NCBI GenBank assembly: GCA_947470855.1
Contig: CANIUQ010000005.1
Span: 1 to 64,000 of the forward strand
Direction of reading: 5' to 3'
From: Opitutia bacterium
GTDB lineage: Bacteria; Verrucomicrobiota; Verrucomicrobiia; Opitutales; UBA953
DNA: 64,000 nt
Shown here: positions 34,602 to 44,741 of the stretch, piece by piece
Position numbering within the stretch: position 1 is the stretch's first letter
Layout: each line of letters starts with the position of its first letter
Translations under genes and position numbers: made by a program
Notes under the pieces: model-generated
What the model was told of the DNA's origin: nothing
Databases searched by the model: none
What the model saw: only the letters and a program-made list of their open reading frames with translations

Positions 34602-35291
34602 ATGCGTTTATTAAAGGCCATTTACAGCTGCCTGCTGGTGTTGGTTTTTCAACTGAGTGCTTTGAACGCAGAGACGGCTGTGAATAACGCTAATGTTCCG
34701 ACCAAGCCATCGGTGACCGTTCATGATGTAAAATTTTTGCAAACTAAGTTGGGCGGACAGGTCAATTTTTCCAACCGCATGCAGGTTGAAGTTGGAGCGA
34801 ATAACAATTCTGATCCTAAGGCCCCGAATAAAAAATGGGTGGATAAAGTGAAAGTCACTGTCACCCAAATTTATAAAACCGACTCGAAGAAATTTGAAGA
34901 TTGGAATTACTACCGTGCCTCCGCGACGATTTTAACTTTAGAGGTTGGAGCTTCAAATTCTCGCTCGGTTTTGTTTTATCTGCCGAGTGATATCGTGAAG
35001 CGCGATCGTCTCAGCAAGGAACCAGATTATTATTTTGTACAACTCGAAGTGAACGGCAAAGAGGAGCCTCTTTTTGATGCCAAGGGTTTGGTCATTCCTG
35101 AGCAAGCTCGGGGCATACACAAAGATTTACTTTTAAAATCTAATTTCGATCCTGCGAAAGAAGCGGCAGACCGAGGAGTGCTTAATAATCCAGGTGTTCT
35201 GCGACCACAGTATCTATTGTCTTATTTTGATACAAAAGGATGGGTGCCTGAGTCTCCCGAGTTTATTCGTGAAGACGCCCCTTCCCGCTAA
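34602..35291 (+). CDS. Amuc_1102-family pilus-like protein
   Basis: 229 residues with a signal peptide (about 1-23), exported. The body (VTVHDVKFLQTK, MQVEVGANNNSD, KVTVTQIYKT, DYYFVQLEVNG, LRPQYLLSYFDTKGWVPE) corresponds to the Amuc_1102 family described from Akkermansia muciniphila, known to adopt an OB-like fold as I recall. It opens a five-gene locus in the same order as the Akkermansia genes. It is probably a periplasmic part of the pilus-like assembly; the exact role is unknown. Confidence 0.8.
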   Translation: MRLLKAIYSCLLVLVFQLSALNAETAVNNANVPTKPSVTVHDVKFLQTKLGGQVNFSNRMQVEVGANNNSDPKAPNKKWVDKVKVTVTQIYKTDSKKFEDWNYYRASATILTLEVGASNSRSVLFYLPSDIVKRDRLSKEPDYYFVQLEVNGKEEPLFDAKGLVIPEQARGIHKDLLLKSNFDPAKEAADRGVLNNPGVLRPQYLLSYFDTKGWVPESPEFIREDAPSR

Positions 35292-35321
35292 TTTCAACAG
35301 CGAATATTGTCTTTCGACTGC

Positions 35322-37016
35322 ATGAGTCAGAAAAAAAGCCTTATTGTTAATCTTGCCGCATCACATGTTTCCATTTCGGCTTTTCGTGCTGAAGCGGGGA
35401 AGTTGATTTTGGAGCAATTCTTTACGCGAGATTTAGCTCCAGGTTTGGCGGATGACGATTGGCTGAATGAGGCGGTTACAGCCGTAAGTTATTTAGTATC
35501 GGCGAACAAAATTTCTGGGCGAGTAACCATCATTGCCCCGAGTTTTCTTCTGCTCCAAAAAACTTTAAAGGTGCCGCAAGTTGAGCCGGAACGGCAGGCG
35601 CAGATTGTCGCTTTTGAGGCACAAAATAATATCCCTTATCCTTTGAATGAAGTCATTTGGGATAGTCAGGTTATCTCCTCTGATGGAGTGGAGGCGGAAA
35701 TCCTGCTTTTTGCATTACGCACCGAAGTGGCTAGTAAGATTGCGCATTCCATTGCGGCTACCGGCTTGCGACCATTGTCGATTCAGGCTGCACCACTTCT
35801 TGATGCACAAGCCGCACAGTTGGCGGGGTTAGCCCAAGAAGAAGAGTCCTTGATTGTTAATGTCGGTGCTCGCTCAACGGGTTTGAGTTTTATTGGGCCT
35901 GCTGGTTCTACGATTCAAACGGCTAATATTGGGGGAAATCTTCTCACCCAAGGTGTTTCAGATAATACTGGGCAAGCTTTTCTTAATGCCGAGGCGCTCA
36001 AGATTGGATATTTCAATGGCGTGATTCATTTGCCCGAATCCGATCCACAAATCGCGATTCTCCAAGCCAATGTGCAAAGTTTTATCCGTCGTCTCTCGCA
36101 AGACATCAATCGACGATTAATTAATATTCGCCGTGGGGCTGGAGCGCGCCAGCCAACTCGTATTTTGTTAACTGGGCGAGGTTCACGAGTGCCGGGGCTT
36201 TCTGAACATCTGACCGAGTCTCTGCGTTTGCCGGTGGAAGATTTTAATCCTGCCCCTGCGGTCAAGATTGATGCGGGAGTAAACCCGCAATATATTCAGC
36301 AACATCTCTTGCAGATTTCAGAAGTGATCGGTGAAGCCGCTCGATTGGTTTTACCGAAAGCAACAGGGGTGAATTTAATTCCACGTGATATTGCCGCGCA
36401 GATGGTTTTCGATGCGCGTAAACCTTTACTCATTCTTGCCTCCGTCCTCGTAGCCATTTCGCCTTTGCCTATTTGCCATGCTTACTACTCTGCCAATCAG
36501 TATAATGAGGAGCAAATGGCAAAGGTTAAAGTTAAAGCGGATGCCCTTTTAAGCCATCAACGAGAATTAAAGACAACGCGCGAGTCTGCTAATTCGGTTT
36601 GGGAGGTGAATAAGAAGTTGGAATTTGTTTTCGACCAATCTCCGAATTGGGTGAACTTCTTAGTTGATTTACAGGATCGAATTAAAGCGAGTTCAGATAC
36701 ATGGGTTGAAGATATTCGGGTGAAGCGAGAACAAGCGGTGGCCACCCCTGTGCTCGATGGCGAAGTTGCTCCACCCGCTCCTCCATCCGTGACAAAGGTC
36801 ATTGTGACCGCACGAATTCTTTTGAATAAAATACCACCTGGTCGACCCTTTAACGCCCAAGAGTTTAACGAGCGAGAGGTTGCTTTAGTTGAAAGTTTAA
36901 AGCGGTCGCCTTTCGTTGCTGATATCCCCTCGGACGAAATTAAACCAGAGTATAGTGAGCCAAATATTCCGCGGGTCACTTTTACCTTAGTTATAAAACA
37001 GGAGAAAGCTCTGTGA
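35322..37016 (+). CDS. Amuc_1101-family PilM-like protein with fused PilN-like part
   Basis: 564 residues from ATG 35322; a TTG at 35307 is possible but less likely. Residues about 5-350 form an actin-like PilM/FtsA fold (LIVNLAASHVSI, VPQVEPERQAQIVAFEAQNNIPYPL, LIVNVGARSTGLSFI, ILLTGRGSRVPGL). At about 368-390 is one membrane helix, followed by a coiled coil and a periplasmic domain like PilN. In most bacteria PilM and PilN are separate proteins; here one chain spans both sides of the inner membrane. It is followed 8 bases later by the Amuc_1100-like gene. Confidence 0.82.
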   Translation: MSQKKSLIVNLAASHVSISAFRAEAGKLILEQFFTRDLAPGLADDDWLNEAVTAVSYLVSANKISGRVTIIAPSFLLLQKTLKVPQVEPERQAQIVAFEAQNNIPYPLNEVIWDSQVISSDGVEAEILLFALRTEVASKIAHSIAATGLRPLSIQAAPLLDAQAAQLAGLAQEEESLIVNVGARSTGLSFIGPAGSTIQTANIGGNLLTQGVSDNTGQAFLNAEALKIGYFNGVIHLPESDPQIAILQANVQSFIRRLSQDINRRLINIRRGAGARQPTRILLTGRGSRVPGLSEHLTESLRLPVEDFNPAPAVKIDAGVNPQYIQQHLLQISEVIGEAARLVLPKATGVNLIPRDIAAQMVFDARKPLLILASVLVAISPLPICHAYYSANQYNEEQMAKVKVKADALLSHQRELKTTRESANSVWEVNKKLEFVFDQSPNWVNFLVDLQDRIKASSDTWVEDIRVKREQAVATPVLDGEVAPPAPPSVTKVIVTARILLNKIPPGRPFNAQEFNEREVALVESLKRSPFVADIPSDEIKPEYSEPNIPRVTFTLVIKQEKAL

Positions 37017-37024
37017 GCTGAATC

Positions 37025-38089
37025 ATGAACGATTTTAAAAAGAATCCCATTTTTTATTCAGTCATCACCCTGCTGGCAGGGCTGTTCTTGGCCGGAATCT
37101 GGTTTGTCTATAGTTTAAGTTCAGCTCAGGCAGCGAGCGCCAAGAAGTTAACCATGGAGGTAAATAAATACCGCAACTTGATTGCTGGTTATAAATTTAT
37201 TCCAGAGGCTAATCCTGTTTCCCTTACTCCCGTTAATGTAGAATCAGCGCGATCGGATAAAAATGAATTAATTAATCATCAGGCCAAATTACGCATGGCT
37301 ATTTCTGGCCCACAGGAATTGCGTATTTTAGGAAAAGAAAAAATGACTAATACCGAACTCGTTGCTTTGATGAAGCAATCGGTCGATGAATGGACGAAGA
37401 GCGCCAACGATCAAGGTATTCGACTGCTTACGGGTGAAAATAAATGCGATTTTGGTTTTCGCCGCTACATACGCAATGCTGGCTCATCTCCTCGGGGAAA
37501 ATTCGCAAAAATTGATCAACAGCGACTCATTATCGATTTCCTTTACAAGTTGTTAGCCGATTCTCGCTCTGAAGCTGGTGGGGCAACGCGCACTCCGCTT
37601 TTATTGATATCGATTGATCGCGAGCCTATTGAAATTTTAGAAGCGAACCCCACGGGCGAAGTTCCTCGATTTGAGGCAGACGAATTTACGCCTACGCGTT
37701 CATTCCGTCAGGATAAATACGTCGAAACTCTCTCTTTCCGTCTTAAATTTGTTTCACAAACTTCTACGCTCCGGACTTTTCTTAATAAGTTGCATGACAC
37801 TGGTCGACCCTTTGCCATTACCTCGATTGAGGTGAGTACTCCCACTCCTGAGGTGGTAAAAAGTTTAGGTGGTAATGTGGTTATTGATTCGGCTGCCTCA
37901 GCCACTCCGACTGCTGTCCCTGCCTTTTTCATGGATGCAACCTTGGCTAATTCTTCAACGGGAACGACGCCAGCTGCACCTGAACGAAAAGTGGTTATGC
38001 GCCAATCACCTTCAGAATTCACCATTCAATTGGATTATCTTTTTGCTCCCGAAGATAAGCCTGCCACCACTGGAGAAACGAAAAAATAA
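37025..38089 (+). CDS. Amuc_1100-family pilus-like protein
   Basis: 354 residues. One N-terminal membrane helix (about 9-30) followed by a coiled-coil stretch and a periplasmic domain with two ferredoxin-like halves, as in PilO. Position between the PilM-like and Amuc_1099-like genes identifies it as the counterpart of Amuc_1100, the Akkermansia protein studied for TLR2 signalling. Sequence similarity to the Akkermansia protein cannot be measured here. Function in this organism is presumably structural, in the pilus-like machine; immune effects need not apply. Confidence 0.8.
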   Translation: MNDFKKNPIFYSVITLLAGLFLAGIWFVYSLSSAQAASAKKLTMEVNKYRNLIAGYKFIPEANPVSLTPVNVESARSDKNELINHQAKLRMAISGPQELRILGKEKMTNTELVALMKQSVDEWTKSANDQGIRLLTGENKCDFGFRRYIRNAGSSPRGKFAKIDQQRLIIDFLYKLLADSRSEAGGATRTPLLLISIDREPIEILEANPTGEVPRFEADEFTPTRSFRQDKYVETLSFRLKFVSQTSTLRTFLNKLHDTGRPFAITSIEVSTPTPEVVKSLGGNVVIDSAASATPTAVPAFFMDATLANSSTGTTPAAPERKVVMRQSPSEFTIQLDYLFAPEDKPATTGETKK

Positions 38090-38103
38090 TAACCGCTGAC
38101 TTC

Positions 38104-39024
38104 ATGAATTCTCGTAAAGATATCAGTTTTGTTCTGGGTGCGGTTAGTTTATTTGTTTTGGCGATTTTGGTTTGGGGTTCGCTTTATCATGGTTGGTTTC
38201 CCAGCTTAGCTAAGCCTCTGATTCCTAAGGACATGGAGGGGCCTAAAGATATCGTCGAGTTATCAGAAAATCCCCAAGGGTCACTCTATCCGGACACCCC
38301 TCGAATTAACGTGAAAGATGGGGTTAAAACTTGGCCCAAACCTGAAGAAAATGACGATGGCTGGGATTACGATTTGTTCACAACGATTGATATCGCCTGG
38401 GATTCTCTGCAGGGCGAGTACGTTCCCATGTCGCGCAAGGTCATTCCGACCCCGCCTTTTGGGGTGGCTTTGGTTAAATTGGCCCACCCCCGTTACCCTT
38501 ATGTCCTTCGCTCCAGTATGGCAGCCAAGTCTGGCAAAGAAGAGGATCGGGAGTTCACCATTGAAAACGTCGAGACCAAAACCTTCTATGAGCGGTGCAA
38601 GTTGAAGCGACCTATCGACCCTAAATTGCCTATTATTCCTCAATCTTTTAAGGTCGAAAAAGGCCCCGACGGGTTTCCGCGTAACATCCTAACCTTGAGA
38701 GACAATCTTCTAAACCGAACCATCGTTATCGACGATATCAAGCCCGTAGAGTTTAAGGATACTTTAGATATCGTCTTAGTCTCGACCTCTGACCCCTCTA
38801 CGACTTGGACCTTCCACGAAAAAGGGGCAAAATTTACCTATCAATTAGCCGATTACGTCATCAAAGACATTGACTTAGATAACAAGACCGTGACCGTTGA
38901 TAAGACCTTCATACCCGTGCCCAAAAAGGGACTTAAGACTTTCACTCAGACCCTGAATCTGCCATCGTCCACCGACACAAAGTTGTCTCCCCCTTCGAAA
39001 GATAAAGCTAAAAAATCTCGCTAA
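38104..39024 (+). CDS. Amuc_1099-family pilus-like system protein
   Basis: 306 residues. N-terminal membrane helix at about 8-30 (FVLGAVSLFVLAILVWG), then a periplasmic part rich in beta strands with WDYDLFTTIDIAW, GVALVKLAHPRYPYVLR and NLLNRTIVIDDI. It corresponds in order to Amuc_1099; no general bacterial counterpart is recognised, although PilP would be the expected neighbour of PilO and PilQ. It likely links the inner-membrane platform to the secretin. Gap to Amuc_1100-like gene 14 bases and to the secretin gene 20 bases. Confidence 0.78.
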   Translation: MNSRKDISFVLGAVSLFVLAILVWGSLYHGWFPSLAKPLIPKDMEGPKDIVELSENPQGSLYPDTPRINVKDGVKTWPKPEENDDGWDYDLFTTIDIAWDSLQGEYVPMSRKVIPTPPFGVALVKLAHPRYPYVLRSSMAAKSGKEEDREFTIENVETKTFYERCKLKRPIDPKLPIIPQSFKVEKGPDGFPRNILTLRDNLLNRTIVIDDIKPVEFKDTLDIVLVSTSDPSTTWTFHEKGAKFTYQLADYVIKDIDLDNKTVTVDKTFIPVPKKGLKTFTQTLNLPSSTDTKLSPPSKDKAKKSR

Positions 39025-39044
39025 TCATAAACTTTCAAACTCCG

Positions 39045-41972
39045 ATGAAATCCAATTCACGTCTCGCCCTTGCCTCGGTAGCCTTGGTTACCGTTGTCAC
39101 CTTTGGCACACTTGCCGCTCAAGAAGGCGACCAGGTCACTAATAAGACGCAATTGCTCTCCGAGGCCTTGAAGGCCCGTGAAGAGGGTGATCTCAAATTA
39201 GCTCGTGAACGTTATCAGCAGTTACAAAAAATCGATCCTACCGATGAGGCTGCTCGAGAAGGTTTGGCATCGGTCAATGCCGCCCTTGCTGCTTTATCTG
39301 GAAACAAATCTGTGACGGTTAGGAATGGTTCTCTTTTAGATGAGGTGGCGAGTAGTCAGCAGAATCTCTACCGCGAAGTTACCCAAGCGGTTGCCCTCGC
39401 TCGTCAGAATGCTGCCCAAGGTAATTATGGAGCTGCTTTACGTATTCTAGATGGGGCCGCCAATGCCTTGCCTAACAACACCGCTTCTCAATCTTACCGC
39501 GATGAAATTTCATTAGCTCGCCAAGACGTCTTGCTTCGTCGTGGTGCCGGCGATCAAGAAGCACAGGAGGCTCGGGCCCGTAGTGAATTTGAGCGTATCG
39601 CTCAACTTAATGAATCTCGAGTCCAAGCCGCTTCGGATTTGATTGATGAGGCGGAAGGTTTGTTGGCTGACAATAAGCTTAATGAAGCTACTGAGACTTT
39701 AAACAGAGCCAAAACAGGATTACCCAGCAACGTTGCTACCGCTCCTGTTGTTGAGCGTATTAAAACAACCCGCTCGGCTATTCTCTCACGTCGTGCTTAC
39801 ATGGCGATGGACGCCACCGACATGACAGCGGCCGAAGGTTATGTTAAGGAATTTGAATCTCTCAACGGTGCTGACGACTCTGCCTCGGTCATGTTGCGCG
39901 AAGAACTAACCGCTCGCAAATCCGATCCCGCTTACCGCAATATTAAAGAAGTTTCTCCAGGGCTCACCGCCAAGGATGAAAAAGTGCAAGAGCTTTTGGT
40001 TAAAGGTCGCGCCCGCTACCTTTACGGAGACTACACGGGTGCTCTCGAAACCTACCGTGAGGTGCTACAGTATCAGCCCAATAATTCTGAGGCAAAAGCC
40101 TTCCAAGTTCGCATTCGTCAGACCATCTCTGAAAATTCTGGATTATGGAATCGTAGCGTAACCAAGGGCAAATTATTCGAAACTCTCGATGAAGCATGGA
40201 AGCTGCCTGAGTTGTATAATCGTGAAGTTTCTGGTGTTACTGGCAGAGTCGAAACGGATCCAGTTCTGGAAAAACTCCGCTCTATCAGTGTGCCCGAAAT
40301 CAACATTCGCGATATGCCACTCGACCGAGCGATTAGCCAGTTGATTGTTGTTTCCCAGTCTTACGACAAAGACAATAAAGGGGTAAACATGGTCGTGATT
40401 GATCCCGAGCATAAAAATCCCTCGGTCAATCCAATCACCTTACGAGGTGTCTCCCTAGAAAAGGCACTCGATATTATTACTAAACAGGTCAATTTCACTT
40501 ATGAAATCAGACAGGGTATTATTGAAATTCGTCCTGACACTGGTTCGAGCGATTTGGAAACAGAGTTCTTCCCTCTTAACCCATCGGCTATTAGCAAAAT
40601 CACCGGAAACTTTTCAGGTGCTGGTGCGGCCGCTGGTGGTGCGGCGGCTAGTCCCTTCTCAGGTGGTGGCGGAACGGGTGCTGGTGCAACCGATACCGAC
40701 CCACGCAATGAAGCGATTAAGAACTTCTTAATTCGTTCAGGTGTCTCTTTCGACGCCACAGGTGCTCAGCTTAACTTCGATGGTGCTAATTTAATTGTTA
40801 CACAAAATCGAAAGAACTTAGAGCGCATTCGTAATATTATCCGTCGCTATTCCGACATTAAGCAGGTTCAAATCGAGGCGAAGTTTATCGAAGTTACCGA
40901 GAGTTCCTTGAACGAATTGAGCAGCAATCTTCGTTTGTCCACAGGTAACACGATTCGTGCCCAATCCAACCTTCGTTCCGCTAACCAAGTTTTTGGTAGT
41001 GCCGTAACAAATTCAAACGGCCTTATCTTGGTCGATGGAGCTGAAACCTCTGTTCCTAACCAACCCCCAAAATTCCCTACGCCTAATTACGGCGGAACCG
41101 AACCTAATTTTGGCGGTGCTACAGGGTGGAATGGTGCCACAGGAAACTATGCTGGCAGGATTGGTACGATTGGGTCGTACGACCTCTCTATTTTCATCAG
41201 GGCACTAGAGCAGAATAGTGGTTCAGACCTGATGTCGGCTCCTAGCCTCACGGTAATGGATCAAAAGACGGCCGTCATCAAGGTTGCCCAGTTATTGCGC
41301 TATCCTCAGTCCTATAGCGATATTCAGGCACAGGTCGGTTCTCAATCTGGTGGCAGTGGTGGAGGTGGTACCGGTGGTGGTGGAAACTCCGTCGCTGTTA
41401 CTGCTGGAACACCTCAAGACTTTACTGTTGAGAACGTGGGTGTGACGCTCGAAGTCACTCCCGCAGTCAGCACTGAGTCCGATACCATCGGGCTTATGCT
41501 CAAGCCTCGTGTCACTGAGTTCGAAGGATTTGTTGAGTATGGTGGTACATCCGTGGCAATCTCAGGTACCATCACCGTCACCGTTCCCTCTGGTTTCTTC
41601 CAACCAATCTTCTCTGTTCGCGAAGTACAAACCGAGGTCACTGTCTTTGATGGTGCAACGGCTGTCATCGGTGGATTAACCCGCGAGGAAGTGAAGACGG
41701 TTAATGACAAAGTTCCCGTCCTTGGCGACATTCCAGTCGTGGGCACCGCTTTCCGTTCCACCAGTAAGTCGACGGTCAAGAAGAACCTCATGATTTTCGT
41801 GACCGCTAATTTGGTCTCTCCTGGTGGCTCGACCCAACGCAATAACTTCCCTGGAATGCGTGCAGGCTCGACCTTCTCGAACCCTGTTATCATCTCCCCA
41901 GGTGGTGCGGTTTATCGTGAGCCAATCGAGGCGACAGAAACTCCCTCGGGTTCATCGAGTTCGGGTCAGTAA
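39045..41972 (+). CDS. Amuc_1098-family type IV pilus outer-membrane secretin
   Basis: 975 residues with signal peptide (about 1-24). Residues about 30-360 are helical TPR-like repeats (AREEGDLKLARERYQQL, ARYLYGDYTGALETYREVLQ). An STN/N0-like domain follows (INIRDMPLDRAISQLIV, LRGVSLEKALDIITKQ), then N-domains with Gly-rich loops and the secretin barrel. The classic secretin signature VPVLGDIPVVGTAFRS lies near 885. It forms the outer-membrane ring through which pilus or substrate passes. It ends the five-gene locus and is followed by a strong terminator. No ATPase or pilin gene lies in the window. Confidence 0.88.
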   Translation: MKSNSRLALASVALVTVVTFGTLAAQEGDQVTNKTQLLSEALKAREEGDLKLARERYQQLQKIDPTDEAAREGLASVNAALAALSGNKSVTVRNGSLLDEVASSQQNLYREVTQAVALARQNAAQGNYGAALRILDGAANALPNNTASQSYRDEISLARQDVLLRRGAGDQEAQEARARSEFERIAQLNESRVQAASDLIDEAEGLLADNKLNEATETLNRAKTGLPSNVATAPVVERIKTTRSAILSRRAYMAMDATDMTAAEGYVKEFESLNGADDSASVMLREELTARKSDPAYRNIKEVSPGLTAKDEKVQELLVKGRARYLYGDYTGALETYREVLQYQPNNSEAKAFQVRIRQTISENSGLWNRSVTKGKLFETLDEAWKLPELYNREVSGVTGRVETDPVLEKLRSISVPEINIRDMPLDRAISQLIVVSQSYDKDNKGVNMVVIDPEHKNPSVNPITLRGVSLEKALDIITKQVNFTYEIRQGIIEIRPDTGSSDLETEFFPLNPSAISKITGNFSGAGAAAGGAAASPFSGGGGTGAGATDTDPRNEAIKNFLIRSGVSFDATGAQLNFDGANLIVTQNRKNLERIRNIIRRYSDIKQVQIEAKFIEVTESSLNELSSNLRLSTGNTIRAQSNLRSANQVFGSAVTNSNGLILVDGAETSVPNQPPKFPTPNYGGTEPNFGGATGWNGATGNYAGRIGTIGSYDLSIFIRALEQNSGSDLMSAPSLTVMDQKTAVIKVAQLLRYPQSYSDIQAQVGSQSGGSGGGGTGGGGNSVAVTAGTPQDFTVENVGVTLEVTPAVSTESDTIGLMLKPRVTEFEGFVEYGGTSVAISGTITVTVPSGFFQPIFSVREVQTEVTVFDGATAVIGGLTREEVKTVNDKVPVLGDIPVVGTAFRSTSKSTVKKNLMIFVTANLVSPGGSTQRNNFPGMRAGSTFSNPVIISPGGAVYREPIEATETPSGSSSSGQ

Positions 41973-41993: not shown

Positions 41994-42028
41994 AAATCAG
42001 CCCACCAAATGGTGGGCTGATTTTTTTC
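41994..42028 (+). terminator. Intrinsic terminator after the secretin gene
   Basis: AAATCAGCCCACCA (41994-42007) and TGGTGGGCTGATTT (42010-42023) form a long perfect stem followed by a T-run ending at about 42027, 22 bases past the stop codon. It closes the pilus-like operon. Confidence 0.93.
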
Positions 42029-43059: not shown

Positions 43060-43884
43060 TTAGTCCTTCTTTGCCTTGGCTGTTTCGGTTTTAGATTTTT
43101 CCTTATCAGGCGAACTGCCAGAGGCCTGCTGTTTGCTTTGCAGGTATTTTTCTAGTTCTTCTTTGGTTAGAGCCACCCAGAAGTCCCCTGTTAAGGGTTC
43201 AAAAATGATATTATTAGTGAAAATTCCATAGGTCTTACCGATGAAATCGGCGTTTGTTTTGAGAGACTCAGTTACTTTCTCAATTTCCTCTTGGATTTTC
43301 TTTTTGGCCTCGGGGTCATTCGTTGATTGCTCAGCTGCACGCAATTGAATGAGGCTGTTTTGCTGTGCTTGCACAATTTGTATATTGCGCTCGAGCACGG
43401 GAATTTGTCCGCCAGTTACGGTTGAGAGTAAGACCATTTTGGTGTTACCACGGGAAAAAATATCCGACTCCTTGAAGTTTGGATTTTTACGTACCTGATC
43501 AATTTGCTCGTCGGTGACAGGGGTGAGCAAATGGATAGAGGTGTTTTGAATAAAATGGGGACGAATAGCGACGTGATCGGCTTTGAACTTATAAACTTTT
43601 TCGAAGACAGCGTCTTTTTGATTAAAATCCCGAAGTTCAGTTTCGCGTGCTTTAGTCAGAGCGTCTTTTTCCGAGGCTGTAATGGCTTCTTGAATGCGTT
43701 GAGCTAGATGTAAGATACGGTGTGCTTGTTCTACCATGATGCGAAGATCATTGGTAAACCGAGCCAAGGTGTCTTGAGCTGAGATCGAAAGGTATTTGTA
43801 AAACACCTTGCCATCGATTTGCATCAAGTTGGGGTCAACCTCTGCGGCCGAGGGAGAGGCAGGGGACTTGGTTTCAGTAGTCAT
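43060..43884 (-). CDS. Coiled-coil hypothetical protein, paralogue of 43890-44741
   Basis: 274 residues, no signal peptide. Charged helical segments (residues 60-90 and 165-200) flank a core with IQNTSIHLLTPVTDEQIDQV and a C-terminal IIFEPLTGDFWVALTKEELEKYL. The layout and several motifs match the upstream neighbour (VRVLTALSDEDYKKF; TTEAKLYTLLTDEEKKGL), so the two are paralogues; this copy has lost or never had the signal peptide. The Lys/Glu/Thr-rich tail may be disordered. No domain recognised. Five bases separate the two genes. Confidence 0.72.
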   Translation of the reverse strand: MTTETKSPASPSAAEVDPNLMQIDGKVFYKYLSISAQDTLARFTNDLRIMVEQAHRILHLAQRIQEAITASEKDALTKARETELRDFNQKDAVFEKVYKFKADHVAIRPHFIQNTSIHLLTPVTDEQIDQVRKNPNFKESDIFSRGNTKMVLLSTVTGGQIPVLERNIQIVQAQQNSLIQLRAAEQSTNDPEAKKKIQEEIEKVTESLKTNADFIGKTYGIFTNNIIFEPLTGDFWVALTKEELEKYLQSKQQASGSSPDKEKSKTETAKAKKD

Positions 43885-43889
43885 AGGGA

Positions 43890-44741
43890 TTATTTTTTCT
43901 CAGGGGTTGCTTCCGACTTAGAATCTTTGGACTGAACTTTTTCGTCTAAGCCCTTTTTTTCTTCATCCGTGAGTAAGGTATAAAGTTTTGCTTCAGTGGT
44001 TTGGATAGTGAATTCGTTAGGCATTTCGAAGCCGCGGTTTTTTTGGAATTCCTCTAGGCTCTTGTTCACTTCGATCTGGGTGTTCTTGATTGCTTCTTCG
44101 ATTTTCTTTTTGTCTTCGTCTTTTGTAAAGCGTGGCTGGGCATCGATGAGTTGTTGCTGGGCGCGTTTGGTTTCTAAAACTCGGCCAACTTGCATCTTAA
44201 ATGTTTCGACTTCGGCTGGGCCTTTAATGCTGTCTCGAATCTGGAATTTTTTATTCTCCCCAAGGGTGACCACGCTATCGGCTTTGAAATCTTTGGCGCT
44301 AGAGAACTTTTTGTAATCTTCGTCAGAGAGGGCGGTCAGGACCCGAACTGCGGTGGGCACAATGATGTATTGGCGTGTCAGGTCGAAATTGTATGTTTTT
44401 GCCATCTTGCTGTTGTTTTCGGTGAGCTTGGCAAGTTGGGCTTCAAGTTGCTTGGTGCGGGCCTCTTTTTCGGGTGTGGTAATCGCAATATCGGCTAATT
44501 GCTTGGTAAGTTCGGCCTGCTTGCGTTCGGCGGTAATGGCCTGGGTGTCTTTTTCAAAGGCAACAAACTCTTCGGCTGAAGTGATTAGTTTAACCAAGAC
44601 AAAACGTCGCCCGTCGGCATCGAGAACTTCGACCTGAATTGATTTAGGCGCCTCACTTGTGGCAGGGGTGGCTGGTTTAGGGTCAGCCGCCTGACTCACG
44701 ATGGATAGCAATGAACTGACCAACAAGAGAAGTTTCTTCAT
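43890..44741 (-). CDS. Secreted coiled-coil hypothetical protein, paralogue of 43060-43884
   Basis: 283 residues with a signal peptide (about 1-18: MKKLLLLVSSLLSIVSQA). A heptad-rich coiled coil (about 65-115) is followed by a core with VRVLTALSDEDYKKF and a second helical part with IEEAIKNTQIEVNKSLEEFQ. It resembles the downstream gene through most of its length. The two may pair across a membrane, one exported and one in the cytoplasm, but this is speculation. No domain recognised. Part of a minus-strand operon with the CvpA-like and kinase-like genes. Confidence 0.72.
   Translation of the reverse strand: MKKLLLLVSSLLSIVSQAADPKPATPATSEAPKSIQVEVLDADGRRFVLVKLITSAEEFVAFEKDTQAITAERKQAELTKQLADIAITTPEKEARTKQLEAQLAKLTENNSKMAKTYNFDLTRQYIIVPTAVRVLTALSDEDYKKFSSAKDFKADSVVTLGENKKFQIRDSIKGPAEVETFKMQVGRVLETKRAQQQLIDAQPRFTKDEDKKKIEEAIKNTQIEVNKSLEEFQKNRGFEMPNEFTIQTTEAKLYTLLTDEEKKGLDEKVQSKDSKSEATPEKK

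Follow-up and report, generated by a model that had tools for sequence, protein, structure and literature searches.

An Amuc_1102-1098-type operon of an Opitutales bacterium probably specifies the alignment complex of a retractable type IV pilus and its outer-membrane gate

Organization of the locus

Homologues of the Akkermansia muciniphila Amuc_1098-1102 genes (MUL2) stand side by side in the genome of a freshwater Opitutales bacterium (1.36 Mb, 96% complete, assembled in 35 contigs), while no pilin gene, T2SSE ATPase or A24 peptidase is found in the window, the whole 64,000-nucleotide stretch of DNA analysed here. This raises the question of which machine the five genes encode and from where its remaining parts would be supplied. 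The locus comprises five co-directional open reading frames on the + strand, spanning 34602-41972, the limits given in a preliminary description of this DNA. All five frames are intact and the intergenic gaps measure 30, 8, 14 and 20 bases with gene 2 begun at the ATG at 35322, a start that was preferred to the TTG at 35307 because proteins of the family start with MSQKK. A strong terminator ends the five-gene operon. Promoter-like sites within the operon occur at chance level only. By inspection, the upstream neighbour is a znuA-like coding region with a divergent start, and the downstream neighbour is an unrelated 5'-3' exonuclease-like gene. The five-gene arrangement is not a product of chance, because it recurs intact in dozens of loci. 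The genes and their recognisable parts are as follows.

34602..35291, + strand: gene 1, Amuc_1102-like exported protein, 229 aa (open reading frame; hhalign to Akkermansia-type 1102)
35322..37016, + strand: gene 2, Amuc_1101-like, predicted PilM-PilN fusion, 564 aa from the ATG at 35322 (NF045709, 4.6e-75)
35334..36347, + strand: PilM (actin-like ATPase) domain of gene 2 (PF11104, 6.7e-17; Foldseek 5eou and 2ych)
36366..37013, + strand: PilN-like part of gene 2 (profile match to PilN, 3jc8_Na; predicted secondary structure)
36372-36383, + strand: NLIP motif in the PilN-like part, at the PilM/PilN junction
about 36426-36482, + strand: one transmembrane segment of the PilN-like part, following the NLIP motif
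37025..38089, + strand: gene 3, Amuc_1100-like, predicted PilO-family inner-membrane protein (NF038287, 2.7e-7)
about 37061-37117, + strand: transmembrane segment of gene 3, followed by a coiled coil and a periplasmic domain
38104..39024, + strand: gene 4, Amuc_1099-like protein in the PilP/GspC position (hhalign to Akkermansia-type 1099)
38122-38178, + strand: transmembrane segment of gene 4, followed by a flexible linker
about 38392-38958, + strand: β domain of gene 4
39045..41972, + strand: gene 5, Amuc_1098-like secretin (PilQ), 975 aa (NF042912, 3.4e-109; PF00263, 2.9e-32; TPR and STN matches)
39138..40100, + strand: TPR region of the secretin (Pfam TPR-type matches at residues 32-94, 116-146 and 319-362)
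41202..41816, + strand: secretin pore domain (PF00263)
41994-42023, + strand: intrinsic terminator at the operon end (13-pair stem, loop of 4, T tract), 22 bases past the secretin stop codon

Further along the window, at 43060-44741 on the - strand, two adjacent lysine- and glutamate-rich proteins of similar size (274 and 283 aa) are encoded; on inspection they look like divergent paralogues, and the upstream protein has a signal peptide-like start.

Relation to the Akkermansia locus and spread across the phylum

The preliminary description had recognised, in the Akkermansia order, an Amuc_1102-like protein, a PilM-like protein, Amuc_1100- and Amuc_1099-like proteins and a TPR-carrying secretin, and NCBIfam and profile-profile comparisons support this reading. 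Genes 2, 3 and 5 matched the NCBIfam families of Amuc_1101, Amuc_1100 and Amuc_1098 at 254, 30 and 366 bits, below the NCBI equivalog cut-offs of 650, 180 and 750 bits, respectively, and are, as judged by sequence, homologues of these families and not NCBI equivalogs. Genes 1 and 4 gave no direct NCBIfam family match. Profile-profile comparison (hhalign) of their products with the positional partners from Akkermansia and related loci returned probabilities of 94-98%, whereas cross controls did not exceed 0.3%. One of the compared loci was attributed to Akkermansia because its 1102 protein matches the Amuc_1102 structure (PDB code 7dsz) at 4.4e-138. The Opitutales locus and MUL2 therefore present the same five homologues in the same order (1102-1101-1100-1099-1098) and the same orientation, with a PilM-like 1101 and a TPR-bearing secretin common to both. 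Differences involve the lower scores of the Opitutales proteins relative to the equivalog cut-offs, the lack of a calcium-type repeat in the Opitutales 1099, and the position of coaE, which lies on another contig beside pilB (L042:5855-6484) in the Opitutales genome, whereas in Verrucomicrobiales-type loci, that of Akkermansia included, it directly follows 1098 (L186-L192).

The closest named relatives of the window are freshwater Opitutae/Opitutales MAGs. The five-gene order is kept in nearly all loci of testable length, within the same genus, in several families of the order and, beyond it, across further orders and classes of Verrucomicrobiota; in these more distant loci most 1102 and 1099 genes were identified from their position and then profile-checked. 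In an even sample of the phylum, 257 of 288 genomes display an Amuc_1101-family match with an E value below 1e-20. This count contradicts the notion of a locus that is rare outside Akkermansia. Synteny of MUL2 across Verrucomicrobiales has been published (PMC13174399, 2026), with 1099 and 1100 called uncharacterised, and a TPR-bearing secretin was described in Akkermansia and other Verrucomicrobia (Ottman et al. 2016, PMC4960237). Considering these reports and the phylum-wide spread, occurrence of the locus outside Akkermansia, which the preliminary description had pointed out, is neither surprising nor new. The locus is real and not unusual in its phylum, where it belongs to the core machinery of the envelope; what the present analysis adds is the PilM-PilN fusion, the PilO assignment, the single-secretin argument and the 1099 repeat difference. 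A 0.9-Mb genome of the same order (G042, locus L059) carries 1101 and 1100 homologues with neither 1099 nor 1098 adjoining, and a PilB-like gene a few kb off.

Gene 2 and gene 3: a probable PilM-PilN fusion and a PilO-like protein

On the evidence of family profiles and a structure prediction, the protein encoded by gene 2 is a PilM-PilN fusion. Columns 29-342 of the 1101 family profile align with Myxococcus PilM (8.6e-41) and the adjoining columns 348-477 with Myxococcus PilN (3jc8_Na, 1.9e-4). The predicted structure, with a mean pLDDT of 85, adopts the PilM fold, and a Foldseek search with this model gave PilM:PilN1-12 (PDB code 5eou; 2.6e-24) as top match and PilM-PilN (PDB code 2ych) at 1.2e-21. 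The PilM fold is followed in the model by a transmembrane segment, a coiled coil and a periplasmic domain of α-β-β-α-β-β topology. Some members of the 1101 family gave Pfam T2SSL/GspL matches, and two relatives matched Pfam PilN.

The protein encoded by gene 3 scores only with the Amuc_1100 family, and its family profile recovers the Amuc_1100 structure (PDB code 6lad; 2.1e-9). The relation to PilO appears at the level of the family. A Pfam scan of Amuc_1100 family members placed one above the PilO cut-off (9.5e-6), and the PilO Pfam match obtained in the genome search of a distant genome (G100, locus L200) sits inside its Amuc_1100-family gene; Opitutales members gave chance-level Pfam matches only, PilO being seen only with the distant ones. 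On inspection, the N-termini of the family comprise a short head and a transmembrane segment with no conserved cleavage site, as expected of a membrane-anchored protein. By descent, Amuc_1100 looks like a part of a pilus frame that groups with PilO. Presence of a classical PilO did not separate genomes with 1101 from those without (p 0.56).

These assignments bear on the best-known member of the locus, since work on Amuc_1100 treats it as a probiotic factor exposed on the cell surface and immunofluorescence puts it outside Akkermansia cells (PMC5332112). Likeness to PilO leads to the expectation of inner-membrane anchoring, in conflict with the published location. The PilO descent of Amuc_1100, together with the PilM and PilN descent of its neighbour, would predict a periplasmic, inner-membrane-anchored protein and makes the surface claim testable. 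Moreover, the locus fills the PilN and PilO gaps in genomes for which standard Pfam annotation yields neither, as in the present genome, which has no PilN, PilO or PilP Pfam match throughout. No paper stating the PilM-PilN fusion or the PilO assignment was found in a literature search whose coverage of subscription journals was thin.

Gene 4: a PilP-like candidate and the calcium-type repeat of its homologues

The 1099 sequence displays no PilP match, and a profile search of PDB chains gave nothing useful; Pfam matches of the Opitutales 1099 members were at chance level only. The predicted model (pLDDT 77.5) found its best VIA-align fold match, among 990 chains aligned, in Neisseria PilP (PDB code 2ivw; Z of 7.1 against 4.6 for the next chain), a weak match with an rmsd of 10.2. 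Foldseek returned no match at E ≤ 0.001, and GspC was not among the matches listed, an absence that carries no weight against it. Taken together, the position of the gene, the layout of transmembrane segment, linker and β domain and the fold match are suggestive of a PilP-like protein.

A TSP3/EF-hand-type DxDxDG repeat is present in all 16 non-Opitutales 1099 members checked (L186-L203, L205), seven of which also match Pfam TSP3_bac, in contrast with none of the Opitutales 1099 set scanned. Opitutales members lack DxDxDG at the repeat site, the single match (L110) lying elsewhere in the protein, and the 1099 of the window has none. This repeat lies outside the published definition of MUL2. 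Its loss in Opitutales would be the simpler reading, because other classes carry it. A tentative and rather doubtful extension is that a PilMN-O-P-Q complex is common to the phylum, with Amuc_1100 as its inner-membrane PilO and 1099 as a PilP-like bridge, and that loss of the calcium module in Opitutales would leave secretin docking calcium-responsive in gut and marine relatives and not in the present organism.

Gene 5 and gene 1: the secretin and an exported protein

The secretin shows no AMIN match and carries the N-terminal TPR region in its place. It scores 142 bits with GspD and 110 bits with PilQ, and no other secretin is encoded in the genome. Amuc_1098 of Akkermansia is an outer-membrane protein (PMC4960237). 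In several distant verrucomicrobial lineages (L193, L195, L198, L199, L203, L205), two tandem secretin genes are found downstream of 1099, with three in L203. The 1102 protein comprises an ordinary signal peptide and a soluble domain, its single hydrophobic stretch being N-terminal. The prepilin signal (GFxxxE) is absent, no Pfam family matches, and a sequence search of PDB chains with the 1102 profile gave nothing useful.

Motor, peptidase and pilins elsewhere in the genome

The absence of a pilin, an ATPase and a peptidase from the surroundings, noted in the preliminary description, holds for the whole window; its proposal that the machine is assembled with distant genes is supported by their presence on other contigs. 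One contig (C14) carries the gene row coaE, pilB, pilT, pilB, pilC. C19 has a second pilT and C1 the prepilin peptidase gene, and N-methyl pilin-like genes, four in all, are distributed over C15, C20 (two) and C30. Each of the two PilT proteins clears the cut-off of the PilT/PilU family. Type II and type IV models give the PilB and PilC proteins roughly equal scores, none of which reaches its cut-off, the PilC-like protein scoring best with GspF and GspE being level with PilB.

Across the phylum sample, strong PilB is absent from eight of the 288 genomes, and strong 1101 is absent from all eight (Fisher 7e-9); as these genomes fall in two families only, the co-occurrence represents about two independent losses. 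A further 23 genomes (including G058, G083, G086, G135, G182 and G174) have strong PilB without strong 1101 and may rely on a different alignment complex.

Proposed architecture and alternative explanations

From these data we infer, with a probability of roughly 0.77, that the products of the operon form the alignment complex of a retractable type IV pilus together with its outer-membrane gate, physically assembled from a PilM-PilN fusion, a PilO homologue of the Amuc_1100 family, the 1099 linker, a TPR-bearing PilQ and the exported 1102. The cytoplasmic PilM part would couple the PilB/PilC motor to the envelope, and the periplasmic PilN and PilO parts would pair into an inner-membrane frame, which 1099, in the role of PilP, may bridge to the secretin. 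Pili would extend and retract through the secretin, with PilB, PilT, PilC, the peptidase and the pilins supplied from the other contigs and 1102, exported without a prepilin signal, as a putative accessory protein. The set resembles the type IVa PilMNOPQ systems of Myxococcus, Pseudomonas and Thermus in PilM/PilN homology, PilO family, secretin, PilB/T/C/D and pilins. It differs from them in that PilM and PilN are fused, no PilP is recognisable by sequence, the secretin carries TPR rather than AMIN and an additional exported protein, 1102, is present. Assignment to a standard system with full pilMNOPQ content, named in the preliminary description as contrary to its view, is reached in part: equivalents of PilM, PilN, PilO and PilQ are found, in a fused and divergent set whose PilP is assigned tentatively. 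Against a pilus stand type II scores that are at least equal, the missing AMIN domain, the weakness of the 1099-PilP match and the reported surface location of Amuc_1100, along with the narrow base of the PilB-1101 co-occurrence in two families and the state of the genome, 96% complete in 35 contigs.

A less likely alternative is a type II-like secretion system that exports folded enzymes, with a fused GspL, GspM, GspC and GspD encoded here and GspE-, GspF- and GspG-like proteins elsewhere. GspL has the same fused layout and is the equivalent of PilM-PilN, T2SSL matches occur within the 1101 family, the 1099 layout is also GspC-like, the pilins are GspG-like in appearance, and the secretin, ATPase and PilC-like protein score with type II models at least as well as with type IV models. 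In contrast with a type II platform, the cytoplasmic domain is PilM-like rather than GspL-like, its PilM match being strong, and the genome encodes two retraction-type PilT ATPases; GspD, GspE and GspF all remain below their cut-offs, and no type II model reaches a curated one. A secretion system of its own, the other option raised in the preliminary description, is unlikely. Still less probable is a dedicated apparatus for glycan attachment or uptake with its own surface structure, in which 1102 would be pilin-like and Amuc_1100 surface exposed. Such a reading draws on the description of MUL2 as a pilus-like attachment locus whose 1102 resembles an archaeal pilin (PMC13174399) and on the finding of Amuc_1100 outside cells, and is opposed by the ordinary signal peptide of 1102, the PilMN- and PilO-like nature of 1101 and 1100 and the co-occurrence of the motor genes. 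Attachment may instead be the job of the pilus itself. The small genome and scattered pilin genes might also recall a relic operon in a reduced genome that no longer makes a pilus, a very improbable explanation given five intact frames, a 1101 protein 51-93% identical to those of close relatives and a complete motor set.

The type IV pilus proposed here would probably be used for attachment to particles or glycans, by analogy with what has been proposed for relatives. DNA uptake is also allowed by a ComEC-like protein on the same contig: just past the end of the window, at G000:C5:68559-69413, a competence protein of this type (PF03772, 1.2e-51) is encoded, a hint of DNA uptake.
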